DNA of 64,000 nt from a bacterium. GTDB taxonomy: Bacteria > Actinomycetota > Acidimicrobiia > Spongiisociales > ZC4RG35. This document shows, piece by piece, positions 36,443-53,447 of the stretch. Both the position numbers and the translations under genes were made by a program. The stretch lies in assembly GCA_028824015.1 (NCBI GenBank), contig JAPPFC010000046.1, positions 1 through 64,000 of the forward strand, in the 5' to 3' direction. Position 1 is the stretch's first letter. The number at the start of each line of letters is the position of its first letter. The notes below the pieces were generated by a model, which had not been told where the DNA came from, ran no database searches, and saw only the letters and a list, made by a program, of their open reading frames with translations.

Positions 36443-37525
36443 TCACTCGGATCCGGTCTGGGACCCCAAGTTGGAGAGGAGGACGATACCGGTGCCGATC
36501 AGCAGCGCCAGGGGGTTGGCGATGGAGACTTCGGCGAAGAGCCAGATCCAGAGCATCTGGAGCACCGGGGTGAAGAAGATGATCCGCTGGACGCTCAGGC
36601 TGGAGGTCACGTACATGGAGTACCGGTAACTGAGCGCTCCGCCGGCATTGAATATCCCTATGAGGGTCAGGAAGCCCACGGTGGTCCAGGACAGCTCGAA
36701 TGTCTTCTCGGTTGGGGGGAAGAACAGTGCGCTTCCCAGGAGGGTAAGGGGAAGGCCGATTACCCGCGCCGCGACGGCCGAATAGGTGGAGTTCCAGGCC
36801 AGGTCGTTCGGGTCGTCGCCCGGCCAGGTCATCAAGCGGCCAACGGAAACGGTTCCCCACAGGCTCCAGACGCCGGTGGCGGTGCCGACCACCGCCACGA
36901 CTATGCCCTGCCAGTTGAGGGCGCCGACCTCGGCGGTTTCCGACCAGATGACCAGTGCGGCGCCCAAGAAGGAGATGGCCATCAATGTCCAGTGCTTCCC
37001 GCCGATGACATGGGGGGATGCCCGGTCTCCGGAGGAGATCTTCTTGCCCAGCCTGGCCGCTGCCCAGACCATGCCGATGAAGGCCAGCTGGAAGATGATG
37101 GTCACCACCAGGGGGTCGATCAGGGTGGCCGCCCAGACCCAGAATGCCAGGTCGAGGGCGAAGCCGATCGTCATCCAGAAAGCCGGAGTCCGCACCACTT
37201 CCAGAGGTGTCCGGATGCGAACCGGCTCTCCGTCCTTGCCCCAATACAGCAGCAGCCCGGCGGCCTTTCCTTTCCAGTCCCTGTTCTTTGAGGGGAGAAC
37301 GAAGAGCAACGCGGCCAGACCTGCTCCCTGGAAGACGAACGACCAGGAACGCCACACGAAGGGATCGTCGCTGGTGTGGGTGAAGAGGTAGAGCACCGGT
37401 CCCACGGAGAGGCCGAAAGCCGCACTCCCGGCCCAGAGGGTCCCCTTGGTGGTTGGGTTCACGGGTCGAGCGGTCCTGTTCTCTGATCTGGCTGGAGGGG
37501 CGGGCGACGTAGTCCGGTTGGGCAA
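36443..37525 (-). CDS. EamA/DMT-like transporter, paralogue 3
   Basis: A 360-residue membrane protein with about ten helices. Shared hallmarks with the neighbouring copies are TKGTLWA, SDDPFVWRSWSFVFQ, the polar loop GEPVRIRTPLEVVRTPAFWM, ATLIDPLVVTIIFQ, SFLGAALVIWSET and a C-terminal SLSVQRI...LWIWLFAEVSIANP. It is the last of four tandem copies. The soluble N-terminal 20 residues may be overannotated; conserved sequence begins at RPVNPTTKG. Confidence 0.75.
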   Translation of the reverse strand: MPNRTTSPAPPARSENRTARPVNPTTKGTLWAGSAAFGLSVGPVLYLFTHTSDDPFVWRSWSFVFQGAGLAALLFVLPSKNRDWKGKAAGLLLYWGKDGEPVRIRTPLEVVRTPAFWMTIGFALDLAFWVWAATLIDPLVVTIIFQLAFIGMVWAAARLGKKISSGDRASPHVIGGKHWTLMAISFLGAALVIWSETAEVGALNWQGIVVAVVGTATGVWSLWGTVSVGRLMTWPGDDPNDLAWNSTYSAVAARVIGLPLTLLGSALFFPPTEKTFELSWTTVGFLTLIGIFNAGGALSYRYSMYVTSSLSVQRIIFFTPVLQMLWIWLFAEVSIANPLALLIGTGIVLLSNLGSQTGSE

Positions 37526-37609
37526 CCGCCCCCGGGCCTTCGGTGCTTCCGAGGTTAGCCTTCCCGCCCCCTGCCCCGGCGGGAGGGTCAGGTCAACCCT
37601 GCGTCAGAT

Positions 37610-38638
37610 TCAGAGTGGATCCTTGGTCTGGGTCTGGGATCCCAGGTTGGAGAGGAGCACGATCCCTGTGCCGAGCAGCAGCGCTTGGGGGTTGGCGATG
37701 GAGACATCGGCGAAAGCCCAGATCCAGAGCATCTGGAAGGCTGGGTTGAAGAACATGATCCGCTGCACGCTCAAACTGGACGTCACATACAGCGAGTACC
37801 GGTAACCCAACCCCCCGGCCGCATTGGAGACTCCCAGGAGGCTGAGGAGTCCCAACATCGCCCAGTTGATCTCGAAGCTGTTCTCGGTCGGGGGGAAGAA
37901 CACAGCGCTTCCCAGGAGGGCCAGGGGGAGGGCGAGAATCCGACCGGCCGCCGCCGCAAAGGTGGCGTTCCACACCAGGTCGTGGGAGTTGCCGCCCGGC
38001 CATCCCATCAGATGTCCGGTCGAGATGGATCCCCAAAAGGTCCCGACTGCGGTGGCGGCGCCTGCGAGAGAAAGGACGACGCCGAACCAGTTGAGGGAGC
38101 CGACCTCCCCGGTCTCCGACCAGATAACCAGTGCGGCCCCGAAGAATGAGAGGACCATCAGAGCCCAGTACTTCCCGCTTATGACATGGGGCGAGTTGCG
38201 CCGACCAGCCGACATTTTCTTCCCCAGCCTGGCTGCCATCCACACCATCCCGATCACGAACAACTGGAAGATCGTGTTCACCACCAGGGGGTCGATCAGG
38301 GTTGCCGCCCAAACCCAGACGGCCAGGTCCAGGGGGAAGCAGATGACCATCCAGAACGCCGGGGTTCGAAGCACTTCCAGGGGCTTTCGGACCCGGACCG
38401 GTTCGCCGTCGTCGCCCCAGTAGAACAGGAGCCTTTTGGCCTTCTTCCTCCAGTCCTTGTCGGAAGCGGGAACCAGGAGGATCACCGGGGCCAACAGAAC
38501 CGTCTGGAAGACGAACGACCAGGAACGCCACACGAAGGGATCGTCGCTCACATGTGTGAAGAGGTACAACAGAGGCAACCAAGAGCCGAAGACCACCGAA
38601 CTGACGGCCCATAACGTCCCCTGGGTGGTTGCCTTCAC
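37610..38638 (-). CDS. EamA/DMT-like transporter, paralogue 4
   Basis: The 342-residue copy carries the same motifs: SDDPFVWRSWSFVFQ, WGDDGEPVRVRKPLEVLRTP, ATLIDPLVVNTIFQ and SVQRIMFFNPAFQMLWIWAFADVSIANPQ split over two helices. The chosen GTG start lies inside a conserved segment (LRPVKATTQG), so the true start may be upstream. The substrate is unknown. Confidence 0.75.
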   Translation of the reverse strand: MKATTQGTLWAVSSVVFGSWLPLLYLFTHVSDDPFVWRSWSFVFQTVLLAPVILLVPASDKDWRKKAKRLLFYWGDDGEPVRVRKPLEVLRTPAFWMVICFPLDLAVWVWAATLIDPLVVNTIFQLFVIGMVWMAARLGKKMSAGRRNSPHVISGKYWALMVLSFFGAALVIWSETGEVGSLNWFGVVLSLAGAATAVGTFWGSISTGHLMGWPGGNSHDLVWNATFAAAAGRILALPLALLGSAVFFPPTENSFEINWAMLGLLSLLGVSNAAGGLGYRYSLYVTSSLSVQRIMFFNPAFQMLWIWAFADVSIANPQALLLGTGIVLLSNLGSQTQTKDPL

Positions 38639-38672
38639 CGGTCGGAGGGTCCTGTCAGGTTCAAGGGGGAGG

Positions 38673-39851
38673 TCACAGTGTCTTGGCCTGCGTTCCCAGG
38701 TTGGAGAGGAGCACGAGCCCGGCTCCGATGAGGAGGGCGGAGGGATTGGCGATGGAGACTTCGGCGAAGAGCCAGATCCAGAGCATCTGGAGGATCGGAG
38801 AGAAGAACATGATCCGCTGGACGCTCAAGCTGGTGGTCACATAGAAGGAAAATCTGTGGCTGGACGCTCCGACCGCGTTGAAGGCTCCTGTCAGAGCCAG
38901 GAGCCCCAGGGTGGACCAGAAGAGGTCGAAACTGTTTTCGGTGGGTGGGAAGAACAGGACGCTTCCGCCCAGGGTCAGGGGGAGAGCCAGAAAACGCCCG
39001 ACCACCCCTGAGAAGGAGGAGTGCCACACCAGGTCGTTGGGGTCGGTGCTCGGCCATGCCATGAGGCGGCCGAGGGAGATGGTTCCCCAGAAACTGCCGA
39101 CCGCGGTTGCGGTTGCGGCGAAAGCCACGACAATGCCCAGCCAGTTGAGGGTTCCGACCTGGCCGGTCTCCGACCATATGACCAGGGCGGCGCCCAGGAA
39201 GGAAAGGCCCATCAGCGTCCAGTACTTCCCGCTCATGACATGAGGGGAGGCCTGGCGCCCGGATGACATCTTCCTGCCGAGCCGGGCCGCCATCCACACC
39301 AGGCCGATCAGGAACAGCTGGAAGATGATGGTCACCACCAGCGGGTCGATGAGAGTCGCCGCCCAAACCCAGAATGTCAGGTCGAGAGCGAAGGAGACCA
39401 CCATCCAGAACGCCGGGGTGCGCAGTATTTCTATCGGATTCCGTACGCGTACCGGTTCACCGTCCGCTCCCCAGTAATAGAGCAGTCGGCGGAGTTTCTT
39501 CCTCCAGTTCCTCTTCGAAGCGGGAACCAGCATGAGCACGGGGATCAACCCCGCCGCCTGGAAGGCGAACAGCCAGGAGCGCCACACAAAGGGGTCGTCG
39601 CTGACATGGGTGAAGATGTAGAAGAGAGGCAGCCAGGAACTGGTGGCCGCCGCCCCCACTGCCCACATTGTCCCCTTGGTGATCGGGTTCACCGGTCGAA
39701 CGGTCCTCTTCTCTGCTCTGGCCTGCTTGGGGTTGGTGACTGGATGACCCCGGTGGGCAGTCGCCGGCGAGGCTTCGTCCTTCATGAAGGTTAGCTCTCG
39801 GGTACCGCCCGGTAGGGGAACGGGACAGCGGGTTACGGACCCTTTCGCCAT
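38673..39851 (-). CDS. EamA/DMT-like transporter, paralogue 5
   Basis: The frame from 39851 gives 392 residues, but the first 22 look spurious; ATG at 39785 (MKDEASPATAHRG) is a better start and gives about 370. The core matches the neighbouring copies (SWLPLFYIFTHVSDDPFVW, ADGEPVRVRNPIEILRTP, WIWLFAEVSIANPSALL). By eye it is closest to copies 4 and 6. Confidence 0.75.
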   Translation of the reverse strand: MAKGSVTRCPVPLPGGTRELTFMKDEASPATAHRGHPVTNPKQARAEKRTVRPVNPITKGTMWAVGAAATSSWLPLFYIFTHVSDDPFVWRSWLFAFQAAGLIPVLMLVPASKRNWRKKLRRLLYYWGADGEPVRVRNPIEILRTPAFWMVVSFALDLTFWVWAATLIDPLVVTIIFQLFLIGLVWMAARLGRKMSSGRQASPHVMSGKYWTLMGLSFLGAALVIWSETGQVGTLNWLGIVVAFAATATAVGSFWGTISLGRLMAWPSTDPNDLVWHSSFSGVVGRFLALPLTLGGSVLFFPPTENSFDLFWSTLGLLALTGAFNAVGASSHRFSFYVTTSLSVQRIMFFSPILQMLWIWLFAEVSIANPSALLIGAGLVLLSNLGTQAKTL

Positions 39852-39882
39852 CAGGGCGGAGGGATGATGACGCAGACGGGAT

Positions 39883-40902
39883 TCAAGCGGACTTGGTCTG
39901 GTGACCCAGGTTGGAGAGGAGCACGATGGCGGTGCCGATCAGGAGGACCTGGGGCTTGGCGATGGAGACGTCGGCAAAAATCCAGAGCCACAACATCTGA
40001 AGGGGCGGGGAGAAGAACATGATCCGCTGGACGCTCAACCTGGAGGTCACATACAGCGAGTAGCGGTGGCTGACCGCCCCGGCCATGTTGAACACTCCTA
40101 TCAGGCTCAGAAAACCGAGGGTGGTCCAGGTGAGGTCGAAGCGGTCGTCGGTGGAGGGAAAGAAGAGGACGCTTCCCAGAAGCGTCAGGGGGAGGGCGAA
40201 GAACCGTCCCACCACGGCCGAGAGAGAAGCGGCCCAAACCAGGTTGTTCGGGTCGTCGTCGGGCCATGTCATGAGACGCCCGGTGGAGACGGTCCCCCAG
40301 AAACTTCCGATTCCGAAAGCGGTGGCGGCGAGGGCCAAGGCTATGCCCAGCCAATTCAGGGTCCTGACCGTGCCGGTCTCCGACCAGATGACCAGGGCGG
40401 CGCCCAGGAAGGAAGACGCCATGAGGGCCCAGTGCCTTCCACCTATGACGTGCGGCGCGGTTCGGTTTCCGGCGGAGATCTTCCTGCCCAGCCTGGCTGC
40501 CATCCACACCATTCCAAGCGGGAACAACTGAAAGACGAGGGTGGCCACCAGCGGGTCGATCAGGGTAGCTGCCCAAACCCAGAAGGTCAGATCAACGGCG
40601 AAGCCGATGACCATCCAGAAGGCGGGCGTTTTCAGCACTTCCAGCGGATTTCGGACCCGGACCGGCTCACCGCTTCCTCCCCAGTAGAACAGGAACCTAC
40701 GGGTCTTCGCTCTCCAGTCCTTGTCCTTGGCCGGCATCACGACCAGGGCCAGTCCCAATACCCCCGACTGGAACATGATCAGCCAGGAGCGCCAAACGAA
40801 GGGGTCGTTGCCGGTATGGGTGTACAGAAAGAACAGGGGCAACCAGGAGAGGGAGACAGCCGCTCCGACGGCCCATAGGGTGCCCTTGGCAGTTGGGCTC
40901 AC
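39883..40902 (-). CDS. EamA/DMT-like transporter, paralogue 6
   Basis: The 339-residue first gene of the four-copy tandem carries GNDPFVWRSWLIMFQ, SGEPVRVRNPLEVLKTP, ATLIDPLVATLVFQ and LWLWIFADVSIAKPQ. As in copies 3 to 5, the in-frame upstream sequence (ENRIPRPVSPTAKG) is conserved, so translation may begin earlier than the GTG at 40902. Confidence 0.75.
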   Translation of the reverse strand: MSPTAKGTLWAVGAAVSLSWLPLFFLYTHTGNDPFVWRSWLIMFQSGVLGLALVVMPAKDKDWRAKTRRFLFYWGGSGEPVRVRNPLEVLKTPAFWMVIGFAVDLTFWVWAATLIDPLVATLVFQLFPLGMVWMAARLGRKISAGNRTAPHVIGGRHWALMASSFLGAALVIWSETGTVRTLNWLGIALALAATAFGIGSFWGTVSTGRLMTWPDDDPNNLVWAASLSAVVGRFFALPLTLLGSVLFFPSTDDRFDLTWTTLGFLSLIGVFNMAGAVSHRYSLYVTSRLSVQRIMFFSPPLQMLWLWIFADVSIAKPQVLLIGTAIVLLSNLGHQTKSA

Positions 40903-42047: not shown

Positions 42048-43274
42048 TTAGGCCGGGGTCAGCCTGACCCTCACCTCGGCGGGGGAGCGGAGGGAGTATC
42101 CGGTCATGGGGGGAGGTCCGTTCACCCACTCGGCCCAGCGGACCCGGTCCATGAAGCGGTTGATCACCACTTCCATCTCCATCAGGGCCAGGAGGGACCC
42201 CGTGCAGTGGTGCTTTCCCGCACCGAACGGCAGGATGTCGGCGCGAGGTGTGAACTGGCGGAAGGCGCTGTCGGCGAATCTGTGCAGTTGGAACTCATCG
42301 GGAGACTCGAACCAGGTCTCGTCCCGGTTGGCCGACGCCAACAGCACCATGATCTTGTCGCCTGCGCCGATCCCCACTCCGGCCAGGTCCGTGTCAACTT
42401 TCGCCTTTCTCACCAGGGCATGGGCGGGAGCGAGAAAGCGGAGGATCTCCGCGCAGGCCAGGGTCACCAGATCCCGGTCCTCTCTGATCTCCTCCCAGAG
42501 GTCCCGGTCCGAGAACAGCACCCACATCAGGTTGGACAGGCCTCGGGAGGTGGTTTCCACTCCGGCCGCCAGCAGTAGCGAGCAGGTGGAGGCGATCAAC
42601 TCCGTGGAGAGGGGTTCTCCGTCGATCTCTGCTTGGCACAGTTCGGAGAGAAGGTCATGGGTGGGATGACGGCGTTTTTCGGCGATGATCGGCGCCAGGT
42701 ACTCACCCAATGCCTCCCGGGCCTCGACGCCCTGGCGGGTGATCTCGGGATCGTTCCTGATGTTGGTGACGCTGGCTTTCCCGATGGCGTCGTACCAGCC
42801 CCGAAAACGCGCCACGTCGGGGATGCCCATCATGGTGGCCGTCACATCCATGGGAAGAGACGTGTTGAGGCCCTGATGGAGTTCAGCCGGGCGGTCCCAG
42901 GGCAACTGGTCCAGGAGCCGAGCGGTGATCTGTTCGGTCATCTCCCGCAACTCACCGGCCAGTTTGCCTCGATGGCGAATCCACCGGCTCAACAGACCGG
43001 AGTGGCGCCGGTGCTCCCGCCCTTCCATGTGCAGGATGACCCGTCCGTGTATGGCCGAAGAGCCCGGACCGCCCATCAGGGGCGCGAACCGGTCTTCGTC
43101 TACCAGCACCTCGGCCACCTCGGAGCGCCGGGAAGCCACCCACCCCTCGATTCTGGGACTCCAGAAGACCGGGGCTTGCCGGCGGGCCCGGGCGTAGAAG
43201 GGAAAAGGATCGGCCTCGTCCACCACCACCTTGGCAAACTCGGCCTGAAGTCCTGGTGAGGTGCTATTTTTCAT
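42048..43274 (-). CDS. Cytochrome P450
   Basis: From ATG 43274 the product is 408 residues, typical of soluble bacterial P450s. The heme ligand is Cys357 in FGAGKHHC, the I-helix oxygen-binding motif is AAGVETTSR, and the ExxR motif lies in ACAEILRFL. It is a monooxygenase needing external electron donors; no ferredoxin or reductase gene is adjacent. It is divergent from the TRAP operon, with 142 bases between the starts. Confidence 0.9.
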   Translation of the reverse strand: MKNSTSPGLQAEFAKVVVDEADPFPFYARARRQAPVFWSPRIEGWVASRRSEVAEVLVDEDRFAPLMGGPGSSAIHGRVILHMEGREHRRHSGLLSRWIRHRGKLAGELREMTEQITARLLDQLPWDRPAELHQGLNTSLPMDVTATMMGIPDVARFRGWYDAIGKASVTNIRNDPEITRQGVEAREALGEYLAPIIAEKRRHPTHDLLSELCQAEIDGEPLSTELIASTCSLLLAAGVETTSRGLSNLMWVLFSDRDLWEEIREDRDLVTLACAEILRFLAPAHALVRKAKVDTDLAGVGIGAGDKIMVLLASANRDETWFESPDEFQLHRFADSAFRQFTPRADILPFGAGKHHCTGSLLALMEMEVVINRFMDRVRWAEWVNGPPPMTGYSLRSPAEVRVRLTPA

Positions 43275-43416: not shown

Positions 43417-45438
43417 GTGAGGAAGTTCTTAGCAGTATTAGGAGTTCTCGCTCTCTTGGCCGCGGCCTGCGGAGACGGAGACGACGAACCCACCGCCACC
43501 ACTGAAGCAGCGGTGGTAACCACCACTGCCGCGCCGGCCGAGACTCCCGATGAACCCGCCGATGAACCGGCCGATGAACCGGCGCCGGCAGAGCCCGACT
43601 ATCCCGAGATCACCATCAATATCGGGCATTCGGGCGCTCCTGACGGTTATGCCGACGTGGCGGCCGTCAAGTTCAAGGAACTTGTCGAAGAGGGTTCCGG
43701 AGGCCAGATCACGGTGGAGGTGTTCCCCTCCTCGCAGATCGGTTCCGAGCGTGAGTTGGTGGAAGGCGCCCAGTTGGGATCCATCGACGCGGGCGTGGTG
43801 TTCGCCGGGATTCTCGAGAGCTTCGTTCCCGAGATGGGAGTGGTGAATCTGCCGTTCCTGTTCGACGGACAGGACCACGTGAACGCGGTGTTCGACGGCC
43901 CGGTGGGACGCGAACTCCTCGGTCTGGCTGAGGGTGTGGGCATCAAGGCCCTGGCCATCGGCCAGTTCGGTTTGCGTTCGATGATGAACAGCCAACGTCC
44001 CATCTATACCCCCTCCGATGCGGCCGGTCTGAAATTCCGGGTGCCGGAGTCCGACATCTACATCAGCACCTATGAGTCGGTGGGCGCCAATCCGGTGCCG
44101 CTGCCCGGTCCGGAGATCTTCACGTCGCTCCAGAACGGAGTGGTGGACGGAACCGGCGCGCCGATCTTCGCGGCGGTCACCCAGAAGTACTACGAGACGC
44201 CCGTGCAATACCTGTCGCTCACCGAGCACATCTACGCGGCGCTTCTCATGTTCATGTCGGGTGAGCTGTGGGACAGCCTGACCCCCAAGGCCCAGGACCT
44301 GATCGAGCAGTCGGCTTCCGCCGCTGCCGCGCATCAGCGGGCCGAAGCAGCCAAGTTGGACGCCGGCTACCTCGCCGAGTTGCAGGACCAGGGCTGGCAG
44401 GTCAACGACGTCGACAAGGGCCTGTTCCGCACCGCGGTGGCGGGCGTCTATGACGCCAATCCCCACCTGGCGGAGTGGGCCGACCGGATCCGGGTTGTGA
44501 GCCCGAGCGGCGCCATGGACGTATCTCTCTTGCCCGAGATCACCATCAACATCGGGCATTCGGGCGCTCCTGACGGTTATGCCGATGTGGCGGCCGTCAA
44601 GTTCAAGGAGTTGGTCGAGGAGCGCTCCGGCGGCCGCATGACCGTGGAGGTCTTCCCCTCCTCGCAGATCGGTTCCGAGCGTGAGTTGGTCGAGGGCGCC
44701 CAGTTGGGTTCCATCGACGCCGGTGTGGTGTTCGCCGGACTCCTGGAGAGCTTCGTTCCCGAGATGGGCGTGGTGAACCTGCCCTTCCTGTTCGACGGCC
44801 AGGACCACGTCGACGCGGTGTTCGACGGTCCGGTGGGACGCGAACTACTCGGTCTGGCCGAGGAAGTGGACATCAAGGCCCTGGCCATCGGTCAGTTCGG
44901 TCTGCGTTCGATGATGAACAGCCAGCGGCCGATCTATACCCCCTCGGATGCGGCGGGCCTGAAGTTCCGGGTTCCCGAATCCGACATCTATATCCGGACC
45001 TATGAGTTGGTGGGCGCCAATCCGGTGCCGCTGCCGGGTCCGGAGATCTTCACTTCGTTGCAGAACGGGGTGGTTGACGGGACCGGCGCGCCGATCTTCG
45101 CGGCGGTCACCCAGAAGTACTACGAGACGCCGGTCAAGTACCTGTCGCTCACCGAGCACATCTACGCGGCGCTTCTCATGTTCATGGGTGGCGAGTTGTG
45201 GGACGGCCTGGGTCCGGCCGCACAGCAGTTGGTGCAGCAGGCTGCCATCGAGGCCGCCGCGCATCAGCGGGCCGAAGCGGCCAAGCTGGACGCCGGTTAC
45301 CTCGCAGAACTGCAGAACCAGGGCTGGGAGGTCAACGACGTAGACAAGGACGCTTTCCGCGCTGCGGTTGCGGGCGTCTATGACGAACGGCCCGAGTTGG
45401 CCGAGTGGGCGGACCGCATTCGTGCGGCTGCTCCGTGA
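43417..45438 (+). CDS. dctP: TRAP transporter solute-binding protein (DctP type), internally duplicated
   Basis: GTG 43417 follows GGAGGT. The signal peptide ends in a lipobox with Cys18 (LLAAACGDG), followed by a Thr/Glu/Pro-rich linker. Two complete DctP domains follow, from residues 63 and 373, both beginning PEITINIGHSGAPDG and both containing PSSQIGSERELVEGAQLGS and GLKFRVPESDIYI. At 673 residues it is about twice the normal length of one DctP. The repeat unit is 930 bp. DctP captures a carboxylate outside the cell for the DctQM permease. Confidence 0.9.
   Translation: MRKFLAVLGVLALLAAACGDGDDEPTATTEAAVVTTTAAPAETPDEPADEPADEPAPAEPDYPEITINIGHSGAPDGYADVAAVKFKELVEEGSGGQITVEVFPSSQIGSERELVEGAQLGSIDAGVVFAGILESFVPEMGVVNLPFLFDGQDHVNAVFDGPVGRELLGLAEGVGIKALAIGQFGLRSMMNSQRPIYTPSDAAGLKFRVPESDIYISTYESVGANPVPLPGPEIFTSLQNGVVDGTGAPIFAAVTQKYYETPVQYLSLTEHIYAALLMFMSGELWDSLTPKAQDLIEQSASAAAAHQRAEAAKLDAGYLAELQDQGWQVNDVDKGLFRTAVAGVYDANPHLAEWADRIRVVSPSGAMDVSLLPEITINIGHSGAPDGYADVAAVKFKELVEERSGGRMTVEVFPSSQIGSERELVEGAQLGSIDAGVVFAGLLESFVPEMGVVNLPFLFDGQDHVDAVFDGPVGRELLGLAEEVDIKALAIGQFGLRSMMNSQRPIYTPSDAAGLKFRVPESDIYIRTYELVGANPVPLPGPEIFTSLQNGVVDGTGAPIFAAVTQKYYETPVKYLSLTEHIYAALLMFMGGELWDGLGPAAQQLVQQAAIEAAAHQRAEAAKLDAGYLAELQNQGWEVNDVDKDAFRAAVAGVYDERPELAEWADRIRAAAP
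43603..44532 (+). repeat. First unit of 930-bp internal tandem duplication
   Basis: This unit spans from CCCGAGATCACC at 43603 to just before the second occurrence at 44533. The two units agree over most positions but differ at many third-codon positions, so the duplication is not brand new. Confidence 0.85.
44533..45430 (+). repeat. Second unit of 930-bp internal tandem duplication
   Basis: This unit begins with CCCGAGATCACC at 44533 and ends near the stop of the binding-protein gene. It has 310 codons of offset to the first unit and lacks the first unit's final linker. Confidence 0.85.
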
Positions 45439-45938
45439 GCTCGGTAGCCGGATTAATTAGCAAAGGCAGTCGGAGCACCATTTCGGTGCTCCGACTGCTC
45501 CTAGCCGTACTGCTGGGTGGCCTGTCGCTTCTGATGTTCGTACAGGTCGTGATGCGGTACGTATTCAACTCTTCGATCGTGTGGTCCGAGGAGGTGCCCA
45601 GAATCATGCTCATCTGGCTGGTGTTCGTGGGGCTGGCCACCACCATGAAGGGCAAGCACCTGATCATCGACGTCGTGCGGGAACGTCGCTGGATAGCGGT
45701 GGTCTCCATCGTCTTCAAGTGGGCCATGCTGATCTTCTTCGTTTACTACGGGACGGTCCTGGCCACCAAGGTGTCGGGCCAGACCATGCCGATCACCAAG
45801 ATCTCCCGCTCCTGGCAGTACGCGGCCGCTCCGGTGGGCGCCGCCCTGGCGCTGATCCTGGGAGTGGACGAGATCTTCGACTTGTTCCGGTCATCTGATT
45901 CCGAAGAGCCGTCCTCCGTGGCGGCTGCGGAGGCCTGA
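45435..45938 (+). CDS. dctQ: TRAP transporter small permease (DctQ)
   Basis: GTG at 45435 overlaps the stop of the binding-protein gene. The 167-residue product has four membrane helices and the DctQ signature RYVFNSSIVWSEEVPRIMLIW, split over helix and loop. It pairs with DctM in the membrane. It ends 3 bases before the DctM start. Confidence 0.88.
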   Translation: MSSVAGLISKGSRSTISVLRLLLAVLLGGLSLLMFVQVVMRYVFNSSIVWSEEVPRIMLIWLVFVGLATTMKGKHLIIDVVRERRWIAVVSIVFKWAMLIFFVYYGTVLATKVSGQTMPITKISRSWQYAAAPVGAALALILGVDEIFDLFRSSDSEEPSSVAAAEA

Positions 45939-45941
45939 GCC

Positions 45942-47231
45942 ATGCTGCTGCTGGCGGTGTTCGGGACGTTGTTCCTGTTGCTGCTGCTGCGGGTGCCGAT
46001 CTTTGCGGCGCTGGGCGGCGCCACCATCGTGGGCGTCCTGCTGCACCCTTCGGCCTCCCTCATCGACGTGGTGCGCAACTCCATCAACGGGATCGACTCG
46101 TTGGTGCTGTTCGCGGCGCCCCTGTTCGTTCTGGCCGGCAATCTCATCCTGGCGGGAGGCGTTTCCCGGCGTTTGATCGGCTGGGTGGACCTTCTGTTCG
46201 GTTTCAGCCGGCTCCGCCTGGCATATGTGAACGTGTTCGGGTCGATGTTCTTCGGGGGGATCTCCGGTTCGGCCACCGCCGACTCCGCAGCCATCGGCTC
46301 GGTGCTGGTGCCGGAGATGAAAAAGGGTGGGTATCCCACTCCCTACGCGGCGGGGGTCACCGCCGCTTCGAGTTCAATAGGGATCATCGTCCCTCCCAGC
46401 GTGCCGATGATCCTGGCGGGGGCCGCCACCAGTGTCTCGATCACCAAGCTGTTCGTGGGAGGGTATGGCCCCGGAATACTGATCGCGGTCTCCCTGGCCA
46501 CGGTGGCCTGGATAAGGCGCCCGCGTTCGGGCGTGAAGGCCGATCCCGAGAGGTTCAGCATCAAGCGCATGGGCACAACCACCTACAAGGCGTTGCCCGC
46601 CCTGGTCTTCCCGGTGGTGATCATGGGAGGGATCCTGGCCGGAGTCTTCACGGCCACCGAAGCAGCGGCGGTGGCGGTGGTCTATTCGCTTCTGGTAGCC
46701 ATCTTCATATACCGGGAGATGGGATGGAAGACCTTCTTCAAAATTCTCAAGGAATCGGCCGAGTTCGCCGCGGTGTTGTTCATCATCGTCGCCACGGCCC
46801 AGGCTTTCGGGCGGTTCCTGACCCTGGCCAAGGTGCCCCAGCAGCTCACCGAGTTCATGCTGGGATTCTCGAGCACCCCGGCGGTGGTGATCCTGATGAT
46901 GATCCTTCTCCTCCTGATCATCGGCACCTTCATGGAGACAGTCCCCATCGTGCTGGTGCTCTATCCCATCCTCGAGCCGATCGCCACCTCACCCGAGGTG
47001 GGGATGGATCCCATCCACTACGGTGTCACCTTCATGGGCGCCATCGCGGTCGGCCTCCTCACTCCCCCCTACGGAGTTCTCCTGTTCGTCAACTCCAAGA
47101 TCGCCGGGATCCCCTCTGCCGACCTGATCAGGGCCGTGCTGCCCTTCATCGCGGTGCTCATCGTCGACGTGCTGATCATCGCCTTCTTCCCACCCCTCAC
47201 TCTGGGGCCGGTGAATTTCTTCTTCGGCTAG
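45942..47231 (+). CDS. dctM: TRAP transporter large permease (DctM)
   Basis: The 429-residue large subunit has about 12 membrane helices. It carries the characteristic GSMFFGGISGSATADSAAIGS and PPSVPMILAGAATSVSITKLF segments. It drives solute uptake by a sodium or proton gradient together with DctQ and DctP. Confidence 0.92.
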   Translation: MLLLAVFGTLFLLLLLRVPIFAALGGATIVGVLLHPSASLIDVVRNSINGIDSLVLFAAPLFVLAGNLILAGGVSRRLIGWVDLLFGFSRLRLAYVNVFGSMFFGGISGSATADSAAIGSVLVPEMKKGGYPTPYAAGVTAASSSIGIIVPPSVPMILAGAATSVSITKLFVGGYGPGILIAVSLATVAWIRRPRSGVKADPERFSIKRMGTTTYKALPALVFPVVIMGGILAGVFTATEAAAVAVVYSLLVAIFIYREMGWKTFFKILKESAEFAAVLFIIVATAQAFGRFLTLAKVPQQLTEFMLGFSSTPAVVILMMILLLLIIGTFMETVPIVLVLYPILEPIATSPEVGMDPIHYGVTFMGAIAVGLLTPPYGVLLFVNSKIAGIPSADLIRAVLPFIAVLIVDVLIIAFFPPLTLGPVNFFFG

Positions 47232-47252
47232 CTTTCCATGAAAGGTCCTTCC

Positions 47253-48647
47253 ATGTCCAGAGACGACTTCCGCATCCTCTCCTTCGTGAACCACATCCCC
47301 GTCCACCCCAGGGTGGATGAGTTCCTGGCCGAGACGGCCCGCCGGGGAGTGGACGCGGTGTGCTCGCAGGGCACCGGGATGGACTTCGGCCCTTACATGC
47401 TGGGGAGCGGCACCCAGTTCACCAGCGAGAACTTCCGTGAGAACGTCCGACCCTACATGCGCTTCGCCAAGGAACAAGGCGTTCCGTTCGTGTTCTCGGT
47501 GGGGATCGCCGGGGGGCGCACCCAGTTGGACGAGTGCCTCGACCGGGTGGACGAGATCACCTCGGAGGAGGACCTGTCTCTCCGGATCGCGGTGATCGAC
47601 GGAGAAGTCGACCGGGAGATGCTGACCGAGCGGATCAGAGACGGGGCGAAAGCCCCCCGGGCCGTGGAGTCGCCGCACCTCTCGGAGATGCTGACCCCCG
47701 AGGACGTCGAGGCGTCCGAGCACATAGTGGCGCAGATGGGGCCCGAGCCGATCATGGCGGCCCTGGAGGCCGGGGTGGACGGCGTGATCACCGGTCGGGC
47801 GCTCGATGTGGGGATATACATGGCCCCTCCGCTGGCGGCCGGATTCCCTCGCGGGTCCACCACCCACATGGCCAAGGTGCTGGAGTGCGCCGGCCTGGCG
47901 CTCCATCCCGGCGACCCGTCCGAGCCGATCTACGGAGTTCTGGAGCCCGACGCCATCACCGTCTACCCGGTGTCGGACACCCAGGCCGCCACGGCCCGGT
48001 CCATCGCCAGCCACTCCATGTACGAGCGGGACAATCCCTTCATGGAGAAGAACCCGGGAGGGTATCTCGACCTGACCGACGCCACCTACACCGAGGTCCC
48101 CGGTTCCGGGGTGCGCTCGGAGGGAGCGATCTGGGTTGACACGCCCTACACGATCAAGCTGGAAGGCGCCCGGCGAGAAGGGTACCGCACCATTGCCGTG
48201 TTCGGAGTGCGGGAACCGGCTTTCATCGACTGCCTGGACTGGTTCCTGGACAACATCCGCTCCACCATTGCCGGGTCACCGCGGTTCGGGCACCTGGACG
48301 AGGGCAAGCACTACAAGATCACTTTCGACCAGTACGGGCGAAACGGCGTGCTGGGGCCCAACGAGCCGCTCCGGGGACGGACGCCTCATGAGATCGGCCT
48401 GCTGGTGGACGTCATCGCCGAAACCCAGGAATTGGCCGAGAACCTGGCCTACTTTATCTGCATGGAACTGTGGATCAAGCCCTACCCGAACCGCCAGACG
48501 TCGGCGGGAAACCTGGCCACCCGGTTCGCTCCTCCCACCATCAATGTGGGCCCGGCGTTCTCTTTCAATGTGTGGCATCTCCTGGAGGTGGAGGACCCGC
48601 TGGAACTCTTCCCCTACCAGGTGGTCGATTTCCCGAGGGGGCGCTGA
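47253..48647 (+). CDS. DUF1446/AtuA-like protein
   Basis: ATG 47253 (MSRDDFRIL) has AAAGG at a good distance; ATG 47238 is an alternative. The roughly 464-residue protein matches DUF1446, the acyclic terpene utilisation AtuA family. Segments are PRVDEFLAETARRGVDAVCSQ, GGRTQLDECLDRVDE and GVITGRALDVGIYMAPPL. AtuA's exact reaction is unknown; the family occurs in carboxylic acid and terpene catabolic operons. Here it follows the TRAP genes by 21 bases and is followed by DUF4387, its usual companion. Confidence 0.85.
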   Translation: MSRDDFRILSFVNHIPVHPRVDEFLAETARRGVDAVCSQGTGMDFGPYMLGSGTQFTSENFRENVRPYMRFAKEQGVPFVFSVGIAGGRTQLDECLDRVDEITSEEDLSLRIAVIDGEVDREMLTERIRDGAKAPRAVESPHLSEMLTPEDVEASEHIVAQMGPEPIMAALEAGVDGVITGRALDVGIYMAPPLAAGFPRGSTTHMAKVLECAGLALHPGDPSEPIYGVLEPDAITVYPVSDTQAATARSIASHSMYERDNPFMEKNPGGYLDLTDATYTEVPGSGVRSEGAIWVDTPYTIKLEGARREGYRTIAVFGVREPAFIDCLDWFLDNIRSTIAGSPRFGHLDEGKHYKITFDQYGRNGVLGPNEPLRGRTPHEIGLLVDVIAETQELAENLAYFICMELWIKPYPNRQTSAGNLATRFAPPTINVGPAFSFNVWHLLEVEDPLELFPYQVVDFPRGR

Positions 48648-48970
48648 TGCCTCGGCTTCGCGACTTCGCCAAGACCCTTCGGTCCAAGAACTGCGATCCC
48701 TTCAACACCACCTTCGATGTTTTCTTCGACTCCGAAGAGGCTTACCGGCAGGTGAAGGACTCGGGACGGATCACCGCCGAGGTGCTGGCGCCGCTGTACG
48801 GGCTCACCAACGACCAGGTGCTGGGCATCTACTTCCTGGACAATGCCCTGGCCTTCAAGGTCACCATGGTGAAGGACATCGCCTCCTCCGACCCGGCCTG
48901 CAAGGACGTGTTCGGCGCCCACCAGCATCTGATGCTCGCCGATCTCGAGATACCGGAGGAAAAGAGATGA
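48647..48970 (+). CDS. DUF4387 family protein
   Basis: ATG 48647 overlaps the DUF1446 stop. The 107-residue product shows the DUF4387 pattern RSKNCDPFNTTFDVFF and GRITAEVLAPLYGLTNDQV. It is nearly always found next to DUF1446 proteins; the two presumably act together. Its function is unknown. Its stop overlaps the start of the selenoprotein candidate. Confidence 0.88.
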   Translation: MPRLRDFAKTLRSKNCDPFNTTFDVFFDSEEAYRQVKDSGRITAEVLAPLYGLTNDQVLGIYFLDNALAFKVTMVKDIASSDPACKDVFGAHQHLMLADLEIPEEKR

Positions 48971-49506
48971 GACTGTTGGACCCCCGAGCCGAGGAGTACC
49001 GCCGGTTGGACGGCGCCGATCCCCTCAAACCCGTGGAAGCCGTGGAACTGAACGTGGGCATCCTCAACTCGCGCTGGGAGTCGATGACCCGTATAGCCGC
49101 ACTGGTGGATGAACGCCTCCGGCGCCTGTCGTTCATCAGAGACGTTCGGCACTGGAAGATCAAGCACTCCGAGCCCACGCCCCAGGAGGTGATCGATCAG
49201 GTGGTGGGTTACAGCCATTTCGCGGTGCTGGGACTCGGCAACTGAGGGGCTTGCACAGCGTGGAGTTGCCACGACGGGACCGAGTTGAGAAAGCGGGGGC
49301 TGGGAACGGTGGTGCTGATCACCGAGGCCTTCGAGGAGTTGGCCAAAGCCACCCTGGCCAGCCGGGGAGTGCCCGATCTGCCCATGGTGATCTTCCCGCA
49401 CCAGACCGAGGTGATGACCACCGAGGAGTTGCGGCCGTACGTGGAGTTGGCGGTCGACCATGAGATCGTCCCTCTCATCAAATCGGTCCGGGAACCCTTG
49501 GCCTGA
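48967..49506 (+). CDS. UGSC family protein, probable selenoprotein (TGA at 49243-49245 read as Sec)
   Basis: ATG 48967 has GGAGG upstream and overlaps the DUF4387 stop. Residues 1-92 end in HFAVLGLGN, where an in-frame TGA follows. The same frame continues GACTAWSCHDGTELRKRG, then LGTVVLITEAFEELAKATL, ending at TGA 49504-49506. The joined 179-residue protein has the layout of the UGSC (Sec-Gly-Ser-Cys) family, with U93-G-A-C here. A plain stop would split one recognisable domain exactly at its key motif. The reaction is unknown; a thiol/selenol redox or C-heteroatom chemistry is plausible. No Sec machinery genes lie in the window. Confidence 0.85.
49259..49273 (+). promoter_or_regulatory. Candidate bacterial SECIS hairpin
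   Basis: CGTGG (49259-49263) pairs with CCACG (49269-49273) around a 5-base loop AGTTG. The loop begins 18 bases after the TGA and has a G in its second position, as expected of bacterial SECIS elements. The stem is short, so this is supportive but not proof. Confidence 0.55.
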
Positions 49507-49528: not shown

Positions 49529-50560
49529 ATGGAACTGTTGTCCCGGGAGCTTGACTGCCCGACCGATCTTGGCCTGGACGCGATCCAGGACTGGTTTCAC
49601 CGAGAGGACCTGTCCGACGGACTGCCAGTGATACCCCCCACGCCCGGGCGGGTGGCCGCCATGGTGGCCGGGAGTGGACGCGACCCGGCCGAAGAGGTCG
49701 GGATCATCGACCCCAAGCGGGGCGTGGCCACCGTGGAGAAGTTGGCTATCAATGCGGTGATGGCCGGATGCCTTCCCTCTTACATGCCGGTGATCGTGGC
49801 CGCCGTCTCGGCCATGTGCGAACCCATCTTCAACCTCCACGCCATCCAATCGACCACCAACCCGGCCACGCCCCTGGTGGTGGTGAACGGGCCGATCCGC
49901 CGGGAACTCTCCATGAACACCGACCGCAACCTGCTCGGTCCGGGCAACCGGGCCAACGCCACCATCGGCCGGGCCCTGCGGTTGGCCATGCGCAACCTGG
50001 GGGGCGCCTACATCGGCGTGGACCAGGCCACCCACGGAAGCCCGGCCAAGTACAGCCTGGTGGTCCCCGAGGACGAGGAGTCGAGTCCCTGGGAGCCGCT
50101 GCACGTCCAGTTGGGGTACCGGCCGGATGACTCCACCGTCTCGGTGGCGGGCATCGAGTCGGTGATCAACTCCACGGCGGTGTGGTGGACGCCCGACTCG
50201 CTGGCCAAGATGCTGGCCAAGACCCTCCGCTCCACCGCCACCAGCCAGTTCTTCTCCCGGGGGACCCTCACCCTGTTGATGAGCCCTGCCCACGCCGGGG
50301 TGTTCGCCCGGGACGGGTGGAGCAAGAAGAGACTTCGCGAGCACCTGTGGGAGATGGCCAAGGTCCCGCTGTCCGACTACCCGCCGGAGGGCAATATCCC
50401 GCAGGGCGACTGGACGGTGGATGAAGACCGCGTGTTGATTTGCGAGACGCCCGACGATCTGCGGATCGTGGTCGGGGGCGGCACCGAGGGAAACGCCTCC
50501 CACTCGGTTTTCTTCTCGGGATTCTGCCTCTCCAAGGGCGTGACCAGGAGGATCGAGTGA
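49529..50560 (+). CDS. Partner protein of the UGSC family, 343 residues
   Basis: The protein has the pattern SDGLPVIPPTPGRVAAMVAG, then GVATVEKLAINAVMAGC and PSYMPVIVAAVSAM. I recall this arrangement from proteins adjacent or fused to UGSC domains, with an invariant AINAVMAGC cysteine. The enzymatic role is unknown. The ATG follows GGAGG by about 12 bases and lies 22 bases after the UGSC gene. Its stop overlaps the acyl-CoA dehydrogenase start. Confidence 0.75.
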   Translation: MELLSRELDCPTDLGLDAIQDWFHREDLSDGLPVIPPTPGRVAAMVAGSGRDPAEEVGIIDPKRGVATVEKLAINAVMAGCLPSYMPVIVAAVSAMCEPIFNLHAIQSTTNPATPLVVVNGPIRRELSMNTDRNLLGPGNRANATIGRALRLAMRNLGGAYIGVDQATHGSPAKYSLVVPEDEESSPWEPLHVQLGYRPDDSTVSVAGIESVINSTAVWWTPDSLAKMLAKTLRSTATSQFFSRGTLTLLMSPAHAGVFARDGWSKKRLREHLWEMAKVPLSDYPPEGNIPQGDWTVDEDRVLICETPDDLRIVVGGGTEGNASHSVFFSGFCLSKGVTRRIE

Positions 50561-51663
50561 ACGGGGACCTGCTGGATCATCTTCGCTCCGAGGTGGAACC
50601 CCGGGTGGACGGCTGGGAGGAGGAAGGCCACGTCCCGCCCGAAGCGCTCTGGGAGGTGGGGCGCCGCTTCGGGCTGCTGGGTATGATGACTCCCGCCGAC
50701 CGGGGCGGGAATCCCAGGCCGTGGGCGGAGATCGTGGCGGTGGCCGGCGCCCTGGGCCGTGTGTATCGACCCTTCGGGTTCCTGCTCACCAACGCACTGA
50801 TCGCCGGGTACCTGGCGGAGGTCGCCAACGACCTGCAGTGGAACAGGCGCGGGCTTCCCATCGTGGAAGGCCGGGCCGCTTCGGTGCTGGCTCTGAACGA
50901 GCCCGGCTCCGGTAACGACCTGGCGGCCCTTGCGACCATTGCCGAAAGGCGTGACGGCGGTTTCCGGCTGACCGGGACCAAGACCTACATTCCCAACGCC
51001 GATCAGGTCGACTTCCTGCTGGTGGCCGCCCGGGAAGCCCCGGATGCCGATCCGTCGATCTACGCGGTCGATCCCGGCTCGCGGGGAAGCGAGGTGCGGC
51101 GACTGGGCCCGACCATGGCGTTGCGAGGAGTGCACCTGTGCGAGGTCGAGTTCGACGGGTGCCTCGTGGCCCCCGAGGACCGGATAGGGGAGATGAGAGA
51201 TCTGTGGCCCCATCTGGGAAGGAGTCGATTGCTCACCGCCGGTCTGGCATTGGGATGCGCCACCGAGGCACTGGAGTTGGCTCTCGAATACACCGCCCGG
51301 ACCCGCCGGTTCGGAAAGCCCCTCAACCGCCAGGGCGCGGTCCAGCAGAGCCTCGCCGGGATGGGAATAGCGGTGGAGACCGGCCGGATCTATCTGGATC
51401 ACGCCGCGTCGCGGGTCGACGCCGGCGAACGGGCGTCGCTTCAGATCTCGGCGGCCAAGGTGTATGCGACGGATCTGGCGATGAGCGTGACGACCTCGGC
51501 CACCCAACTCATGGGAGGGTGGGGATACCTTACCTCCGGCAAGGTGGAGAGGCTGATGAGAGAGGCGAAACTCAACCAGATCGTGGACGGGGCAAACGAG
51601 ATCCACCGCACCCTGATCGCCAGGGAGTTGTCCGACCGATACTCAGAGAAGGGAGAGAAATGA
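50557..51663 (+). CDS. Acyl-CoA dehydrogenase family protein
   Basis: GTG 50557 overlaps the previous stop. The 368-residue flavoprotein has ALNEPGSGNDLAAL for FAD/substrate contact, GFRLTGTKTYIPNADQVDF, and IVDGANEIHRTLIARELSDR with the catalytic Glu position in the NEI segment. It oxidises a CoA thioester to the enoyl form. It is slightly shorter than typical 380-residue members. Confidence 0.85.
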   Translation: MNGDLLDHLRSEVEPRVDGWEEEGHVPPEALWEVGRRFGLLGMMTPADRGGNPRPWAEIVAVAGALGRVYRPFGFLLTNALIAGYLAEVANDLQWNRRGLPIVEGRAASVLALNEPGSGNDLAALATIAERRDGGFRLTGTKTYIPNADQVDFLLVAAREAPDADPSIYAVDPGSRGSEVRRLGPTMALRGVHLCEVEFDGCLVAPEDRIGEMRDLWPHLGRSRLLTAGLALGCATEALELALEYTARTRRFGKPLNRQGAVQQSLAGMGIAVETGRIYLDHAASRVDAGERASLQISAAKVYATDLAMSVTTSATQLMGGWGYLTSGKVERLMREAKLNQIVDGANEIHRTLIARELSDRYSEKGEK

Positions 51664-52424
51664 GCGATCAAGCTTCTTCTGTGGCCGTGATAACCGGCGG
51701 GGCCAGCGGCATCGGCTGGAAGACCGCCGAGGTGCTGCTGGAACGCCGGCCGGACGTGGCCTGCGCCCTGGTCGACCTCAACGAGGCGCAGTCCGCAGAG
51801 TTGATCGAACGCTTCGGGGAGGACCGGGTCCGTTTCGTGCAGTGCGACGTGACCGATCCGGCGGCTGTGAACGCCGCGGCAGCGGGGATCGAGGGGTGGA
51901 AGAGCCCGATCAGGATGCTGGTCACCTGCGCGGGGATCCAGATCGTGGGGGACAGCTTCGAGTTGCCGGTCGAGCATTGGCAGAAGGTAACCGGGGTGCA
52001 CCTGAACGGGACCTTCTACTGGTGTCAGGCGGCGGGGAGGGCCATGAGGGACGGGGGAGGGGGATCGATCGTCACCGTGGGCTCGATAGCACAGGACTTC
52101 GGGTTTCCCGGCCGGGCCGCCTACACGACGTCGAAGGCGGGGATCGGGGGCCTCACCAGGGTGCTGGCGGTGGAATGGGCCCCGGCGGGGATAAGGGTCA
52201 ACCAGGTGATCCCCGGGATGGTGGAGACCCCGCTCTTCCAGCGGGCTGCCGCCCAGGGAATCGTGGACGCCGAGGCGGCCGCTTCCGAGCATGCCCTGGG
52301 TCGGCTGGGGACCACTGGGGAGTTGGCCGAGGCCATCGTGTTTTTGTTGTCGGAACAGGCAAGTTTTATCACCGGGGAACTGGTGCATGTGGACGGGGGC
52401 TTCAGGGCCCAGCGTCTCGAGTAA
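51660..52424 (+). CDS. SDR family oxidoreductase
   Basis: ATG 51660 overlaps the previous stop (ATGA). The 254-residue classical SDR has TGGASGIG near residue 13, the catalytic YTTSK, and a C-terminal ASFITGELVHVDGG typical of 3-oxoacyl-ACP or hydroxyacyl-CoA dehydrogenases. In this operon it would oxidise the hydroxyacyl product to a beta-keto compound for the BKACE enzyme. Confidence 0.87.
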   Translation: MSDQASSVAVITGGASGIGWKTAEVLLERRPDVACALVDLNEAQSAELIERFGEDRVRFVQCDVTDPAAVNAAAAGIEGWKSPIRMLVTCAGIQIVGDSFELPVEHWQKVTGVHLNGTFYWCQAAGRAMRDGGGGSIVTVGSIAQDFGFPGRAAYTTSKAGIGGLTRVLAVEWAPAGIRVNQVIPGMVETPLFQRAAAQGIVDAEAAASEHALGRLGTTGELAEAIVFLLSEQASFITGELVHVDGGFRAQRLE

Positions 52425-52442: not shown

Positions 52443-53447
52443 ATGGCAAAAGACAGAATCAACTGGGACAGAGTCAACGCATACATGGAGCGGAGCAAGA
52501 CCCGCGCCGTGCTGAAGCCCTACGGGATGCCCGACATCACCAACCCCTTCACCTCCGCATACGCCGATGTGGACGTGTCGCCGCGCTGGCCCATCTCAGA
52601 GGAGGTGGCCATCTCGGTTGCGCTTACCGGTGGGTTCTTCATGACCCGCCACAACCCCGCGCAGCCCATCTCGGAGCAGGAGATCATGGAGGCAGGGAGG
52701 GCCTGCATGCGGGCGGGCGCTACGGCTCTGCACATTCACGTTCGGAACGAGGCGGAGTGGTCCATCCTGGACCTGGCCCGGTTCGTCACCATAATCGAAC
52801 CGCTCCGTGACGAGTTCGAGGACCTGTATGTCTCGGCCGGAGAGGTGGCGATCGGTCCCGACGACTGGAACGAGATGATCAAGATCTCCAACTCGGGCCT
52901 GATCACCGGGTCGCCAGTCAACACCACCGCCACCTTCTGCGGCGACACCCTGTTCGCAAAGCCCCCGGCGGTGGTGATCGAAAAGACCCGTATCCTGATG
53001 GAGGCCGGAGTAAAGCCCGAGATCGCCGTCTACACCGACGCCGACGTGGACAATGCTCGCCGGTATCTGATCGAATCGGGCCTGCTGGAAGAGCCCCTCT
53101 ACTGGGTGGTCCTGCCGGCGCTTCCCGGCGGCAGTCCCATGCACAACCCCCGCCAGATGATCCAGGGCCTCACCCGCATCGTCGATTCGATATTCGACAT
53201 CAACCCCGACTCGATCGTCTCGGTGTGCGCGGCGGGCCGTCCCTCGGTCTACCTGGTCACCCTGGCCATGCTGATGGGACTCCACGTCCGCCTGGGAATG
53301 GAGGACACCGTCTGGCGCTACCCGCATCGTGACGAGTTGATAGCCTCCAACCTCCAGCAACTCCAAGCCGTGACAGCCATAGCCGAAAACCTAGGCCGCA
53401 CTCCCATGTCCGGCGCACGCTACCGAGAACTTTTGGGAGTGAGCTAA
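52443..53447 (+). CDS. BKACE family beta-keto acid cleavage enzyme (DUF849)
   Basis: This 334-residue TIM barrel matches BKACE: AISVALTGGFFMTRHNPAQP, the zinc ligands in ALHIHVRNE, then GLITGSPVNTTATFCGD, and PSVYLVTLAMLMGLHVRLGMED split over strands. BKACE enzymes condense a beta-keto acid with acetyl-CoA to give acetoacetate and a new CoA ester. It is the last gene of the TRAP-DUF1446-UGSC operon. Confidence 0.88.
   Translation: MAKDRINWDRVNAYMERSKTRAVLKPYGMPDITNPFTSAYADVDVSPRWPISEEVAISVALTGGFFMTRHNPAQPISEQEIMEAGRACMRAGATALHIHVRNEAEWSILDLARFVTIIEPLRDEFEDLYVSAGEVAIGPDDWNEMIKISNSGLITGSPVNTTATFCGDTLFAKPPAVVIEKTRILMEAGVKPEIAVYTDADVDNARRYLIESGLLEEPLYWVVLPALPGGSPMHNPRQMIQGLTRIVDSIFDINPDSIVSVCAAGRPSVYLVTLAMLMGLHVRLGMEDTVWRYPHRDELIASNLQQLQAVTAIAENLGRTPMSGARYRELLGVS

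Follow-up and report, generated by a model that had tools for sequence, protein, structure and literature searches.

A two-unit DctP protein in an acidimicrobial TRAP operon as a candidate tandem receptor on one lipid anchor

A single frame in the window (the whole stretch of DNA analysed, 64,000 nucleotides) encodes a predicted lipoprotein, DctP2, that joins two DctP units. We read it as a two-receptor DctP-type TRAP lipoprotein in which each unit would bind the same organic acid for one DctQM permease, an interpretation to which we assign a probability of about 0.62. Gene conversion appears to have kept two thirds of each unit alike and to have spared the C-terminal third. TRAP transporters are thought to use one free or anchored single-domain receptor, in a 1:1 relationship with the permease.

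Architecture and fold of DctP2

The original prediction of two DctP units within one 673-residue frame was borne out, as the Pfam DctP family matches the protein twice. The frame has a GTG start with a GGAGGT ribosome site upstream and contains no internal stops (Table 1). A signal peptide and LAAAC lipobox are predicted from a reading of the sequence alone, and similar N-termini are present in many other proteins of the same genome. The units are direct repeats spaced exactly 930 nt apart and in register, a repeat signal far beyond chance, with approximately 13 aa between the last helix of unit 1 and unit 2. We considered the internal ATG at 44515 as the start of a separate unit 2 product and rejected it; such a product would be without a signal peptide, and relatives show Val or Thr-Val at the site, with no Met.

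Table 1. Features of the tandem receptor gene and its neighbourhood (window coordinates)
Feature	Position	Strand	Basis
DctP2, solute-binding protein with two DctP units and predicted lipoprotein, 673 aa	43417..45438	+	ORF, Pfam, relatives
Predicted signal peptide; lipobox LAAAC with Cys18 as the lipidation site	43417..43470	+	Read from sequence
Low-complexity T/A/E/P tether, length differs between species	43471..43602	+	Sequence, relatives
DctP unit 1 (aa 63-363)	43603..44505	+	Pfam, unit alignment, model
Unit 1 codons 1-218, apparently homogenised by gene conversion	43603..44256	+	4-fold sites, trees, permutations
Unit 1 codons 219-301, apparently spared by conversion; 13/16 fixed differences	44257..44505	+	4-fold sites, trees
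Inter-domain linker SGAMDVSLL	44506..44532	+	Unit alignment
DctP unit 2 (aa 373-673)	44533..45435	+	Pfam, unit alignment, model, structure match
Unit 2 codons 1-218, apparently homogenised by gene conversion	44533..45186	+	4-fold sites, trees, permutations
Unit 2 codons 219-301, apparently spared by conversion	45187..45435	+	4-fold sites, trees
DctQ small permease (PF04290)	45435..45938	+	GTG start overlaps DctP2 stop (GTGA)
DctM large permease	45942..47231	+	PF06808
AtuA-like protein	47238..48647	+	PF07287
DUF4387 protein	48650..48970	+	PF14330
UGSC-family selenoprotein, in-frame TGA 49243-49245	48967..49506	+	Profile, conserved TGA, tRNA-Sec
Conserved protein, family unassigned, syntenic in relatives	49529..50560	+	Synteny
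Acyl-CoA dehydrogenase, probably starting close to 50560	50440..51663	+	Profile search
Short-chain dehydrogenase (SDR)	51693..52424	+	Profile search
Beta-keto acid cleavage enzyme (BKACE)	52443..53447	+	Profile search
Cytochrome P450, divergent from TRAP operon; start probably near 43271	42048..43271	-	Profile search, synteny

Family membership is well supported at both the sequence and the fold level. DctP2 scored 483.7 bits against PF03480 over two stretches (cut-off 23.4) and 426 bits against TIGR00787, again with two matches (cut-off 175). In the AlphaFold model (mean pLDDT 89.8) both halves are folded, each with the secondary-structure order of a solute-binding protein; the pTM of 0.65 means that the relative orientation of the domains is not settled by the model. 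In Foldseek, TRAP receptors match one half of the protein at a time, with a TMt of approximately 0.95 to 4pdh and 4nq8, and the nearest solved folds are TRAP binding proteins such as 4pdh, 4pdd, 4nq8 and 4xeq. VIA-align returned a Z score of 44.0 for unit 2 (298 aligned, 1.2 Å) and 38.1 for unit 1 (305 aligned, 2.2 Å).

An arginine at unit index 145 is invariant in the homologue alignment and is kept in both units. It is the putative carboxylate-binding arginine, matched to Arg147 of SiaP through conservation rather than a residue-by-residue SiaP alignment; Arg147 occurs in 96.8% of the family, is required for high-affinity binding and limits ligands to carboxylates (PMC4646407). To judge by such features, both units look functional.

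Divergence and concerted evolution of the two units

Over 301 shared codons, DNA identity between the units is 86.0% and protein identity 89.7%. The description of the units as near-identical was right about the repeat and overstated its degree, as DNA identity falls to 74% over the last 83 codons. There are 126 nucleotide differences over 903 sites, falling 29, 16 and 81 at codon positions 1, 2 and 3, and 31 amino-acid changes. The differences are thus mostly synonymous, as had been proposed, and the Ka/Ks comparison of the halves advised at that time gave a dN of 0.070 and a dS of 0.494 (NG86), a ratio that does not serve as a duplication clock because of conversion between the units. With dN well below dS for every unit pair compared, purifying selection acts on both units, which, with DctQ and DctM adjoining, agrees with the original prediction of one lipid anchor and two maintained DctP domains. 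In 30 rows of single-domain homologues, no position with 90% conservation coincides with any of the 31 differences.

The substitutions Q-I-T to R-M-T, S-T-Y to R-T-Y and T-P-K-A to G-P-A-A are all present as named. The second is correct for the window but is not a general difference between units, its Ser being private to unit 1 of the window: at 44065-44079 this unit reads S-T-Y-E-S, whereas unit 2 and all relatives compared read R-T-Y-E-L. The motif is a hint of relaxed constraint on the unit 1 copy, and, with its private substitutions, the first unit may be drifting in this strain.

Across five genomes (the genus plus RHO1_bin_3), 16 positions carry fixed amino-acid differences between unit 1 and unit 2. 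Codons 219-301 hold thirteen of these, of which nine fall within a single helix or immediately ahead of it (unit index 224-239).

We compared 4-fold sites of the units in five genomes. For codons 1-218, the two units within a genome diverged by 0.135, compared with 0.302 for orthologues and 0.306 for non-orthologous units taken from different genomes, and the true within-genome pairing of units had the lowest distance of all 120 permutations. For codons 219-301, the corresponding values were 42.9, 32.7 and 46.9%. The trees follow the same division: in codons 1-218 units pair by genome where resolved (OM1 99/97, RHO1_3 99/99), and in codons 219-301 there is a unit-1 clade (96/100). Exact tracts of 316, 390, 179 and 269 nt are shared between units of one genome in four relatives, and the units of COS4_bin_33 are identical over 816 nt and then differ at 12 sites within the last 87 nt. 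These patterns indicate that the units evolve in concert, with conversion recurrent in several lineages and the C-terminal end spared each time. The C-terminal thirds, by the same comparison, appear to have split before the species did. The longest exact tract between the window units is 50 nt, and this pair shows no sign of recent conversion. An independent fresh duplication in COS4_bin_33 was also considered; it is disfavoured, as the 816-nt tract with its 12 end differences is a better fit to an older, converted pair.

Proposed function and alternative readings

In the working that we propose, two complete DctP domains would be held by a single lipid anchor and its flexible tether, and either of them could pass a carboxylate to the single DctQM encoded directly downstream. 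Two sites per anchor would raise the frequency of capture and docking, and gene conversion, by repeatedly overwriting the ligand-binding two thirds of one unit with the sequence of its partner, would keep their specificity identical. The C-terminal third would be position-specific, probably through different contacts, either domain to domain or with DctQM. The reading of two receptors per anchor follows the example of GlnPQ, in which the tandem domains, joined by a 14-residue linker, bind ligand independently of each other and compete to dock (PMC8025302). We infer that both units bind ligand, and the same ligand, and the docking model and the reason why the C-terminal part escapes conversion have the same standing. 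The same-ligand reading is drawn from conserved positions rather than a solved pocket, and one functional unit alone could suffice for transport.

The second domain might instead be an intramolecular partner, the fusion being a built-in dimer with the C-terminal thirds as the two sides of its interface. The concentration of 13 of the 16 fixed differences in codons 219-301 would suit such an arrangement, as would the behaviour of TakP, in which the two chains of the dimer exchange a kinked C-terminal helix, and of a Thermus lactate-binding protein, which pairs through its C-terminal region (both reviewed in PMC5812351). This mode of pairing in dimeric TRAP receptors makes a pseudo-dimer, or asymmetric docking, a live alternative. 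However, a model with a pTM of 0.65 establishes no fixed interface, and the GlnPQ tandem domains are largely independent of each other, with a 14-residue linker close in length to that of DctP2 (PMC8025302); we regard a built-in dimer as unlikely.

Divergence of the units towards different ligand acids, which would widen the substrate range as in the GlnPQ domains, is improbable. The 16 amino-acid differences fixed between the units in five genomes could be taken in this sense, but no strongly conserved position is touched by a unit difference, most of the differences fall in or around a single helix of the C-terminal third, and it is the ligand-binding part that has been homogenised. Less credible again is a neutral tandem duplication, retained by chance and with one unit decaying. 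Unit 1 of the window does have private changes that are absent in all relatives, but every complete gene retains two intact units, even in a genome whose rpoB is only 62% identical; dN stays well below dS, and the C-terminal thirds separated earlier than the species.

Distribution among genomes

A search for other double DctP proteins, which had been suggested alongside the original prediction, found the intact two-unit gene in RHO1_bin_22, SB0665_bin_24 and OM1_bin76, all of the same genus, in RHO1_bin_3, which belongs to another family, and in COS4_bin_33, a distant member of the same class, for which the exact unit copy number is insecure from short reads. No frameshift lies between the units in relatives; the full two-unit frame recurs in independently assembled genomes from different projects, and the architecture agrees down to the linker. 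In two further metagenome-assembled genomes (MAGs) of the genus, contigs end inside the repeat, as is expected of a genuine repeat. An assembly duplication is rejected and the chance of an artefact in this MAG is negligible, even for a metagenome assembly with two relatives' contigs broken within the repeat, given 126 differing sites, the concurrence of independent assemblies and the lack of any exact shared run above 50 nt, which allows short reads to tell the copies apart.

The gene is present, whole or in contig-broken pieces, in all six genomes of the genus that were examined, and was absent from 34 genomes of other genera of the family. In surveys of the order (138 genomes) and of the class (a sample of 198), two DctP matches per frame occur only in this genus and in RHO1_bin_3 (G888). 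Among 31 TRAP-bearing genomes reached via homologues, mostly of other phyla, COS4_bin_33 has the only double protein among the approximately 150 matches listed. On plasmids, only single-domain proteins were among the matches listed, which do not amount to a survey. The expectation that TRAP binding proteins normally have a single domain therefore holds across the surveyed genomes. Pairs of neighbouring but separate dctP genes are found in other bacteria (G978:C56, 120021-121927; G980:C9, 77341-79307), and such pairs are a plausible forerunner of the fused gene.

Compared with the RpoB of the window genome, that of OM1 is 90% identical, that of RHO1_bin_3 73% and that of COS4_bin_33 62%. The whole TRAP cluster of RHO1_bin_3 (G888/G575; C18, L017) is approximately 90% identical to that of the window, its proteins are about as similar to the window's as those of OM1, and DctM identity is 95% for RHO1_bin_3 and 94% for OM1. 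Such similarity despite 73% RpoB identity points to either horizontal transfer or a binning error: the cluster was likely moved into or out of RHO1_bin_3 or misbinned in that genome, which is listed with 6% contamination. The original prediction had missed three points: that conversion maintains the similarity, that it spares the C-terminal third, and that the gene lies in a catabolic cluster which is conserved and was probably transferred. The names RHO and COS seem to refer to the sponges Rhopaloeides and Coscinoderma sampled in PMC8163846. COS4_bin_33 also has a second, divergent RpoB-like sequence (G574 C137:43545-44372, L122), approximately 35% identical to normal RpoB, within an 1895-codon frame approximately 26 kb downstream of its TRAP gene.

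Relation to known systems

Each half of DctP2 shares with DctP-type TRAP receptors (PF03480, TIGR00787; 4pdh, 4nq8, 4xeq, SiaP) the family match, the fold, the arginine and the DctQ/DctM neighbours. One domain per chain is usual for these receptors without being defining; DctP2 has two. Neighbouring separate dctP genes are likewise tandem copies, but as two genes in their own frames. In the dimeric TRAP binding proteins, such as TakP, two DctP domains may act together as in DctP2, but as separate identical chains instead of one fused chain. The ABC importers GlnPQ and OpuA also tether several receptor domains near one translocator, and the inter-domain linker of GlnP, at 14 aa, is close to the ~13 aa of DctP2. 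Unlike DctP2, these importers are ATP-driven, have an unrelated permease and carry the domains fused to a membrane subunit, and the two GlnPQ domains differ in specificity, unlike our reading of DctP2. No ABC domain was found in the DctP2 frame, and its neighbours are DctQ and DctM.

The reviews consulted describe QM fusions and rare P-Q fusions in TRAP systems (PMC8276074), with no P-P fusion mentioned, and our text searches for a two-DctP protein found only ABC tandem domains. DctP-DctP entries may exist in InterPro, and we do not claim DctP2 as the first of its type. We raise, tentatively, the broader possibility of a TRAP class with a covalent two-domain receptor, its pockets kept identical by conversion and its C-terminal faces specialised, such that docking falls to one unit and loading to the other, or the two engage the permease asymmetrically, in a cluster moved among mostly sponge-derived Acidimicrobiia. 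A natural tandem receptor offers a direct test of whether TRAP transport is limited by the number of receptors or by their proximity, which has so far been addressed in tandem-domain ABC importers. The homogenised ligand part set against a position-specific C-terminal third is also a natural experiment on the TRAP receptor surfaces that are important for more than ligand binding.

Operon and substrate

The TRAP cluster is syntenic in relatives. The substrate of DctP2 is probably an organic acid, and the AtuA-like, DUF4387, UGSC selenoprotein, uncharacterised, acyl-CoA dehydrogenase, SDR, BKACE and P450 proteins encoded alongside the transporter suggest catabolism of a carboxylic acid via CoA or keto-acid steps. 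A literature search for a substrate clue in papers naming DUF1446 and DUF4387 together found no such paper. Elsewhere in the window, four tandem paralogous membrane-protein genes at 36446-40902 (minus strand) encode proteins of approximately 340 aa that are 63-68% mutually identical; one of them was tested and had no Pfam or NCBIfam match.

The selenoprotein gene of the cluster carries a UGSC-type motif, GLGN-U-GACT, and would be truncated by standard gene calling. Members of the family have been described in ocean metagenomes (PMC2398784), and the NF041046 score of 71 bits is below the cut-off of 125. All seven loci compared retain the in-frame TGA, and the genome has a tRNA-Sec gene (79.5 bits).
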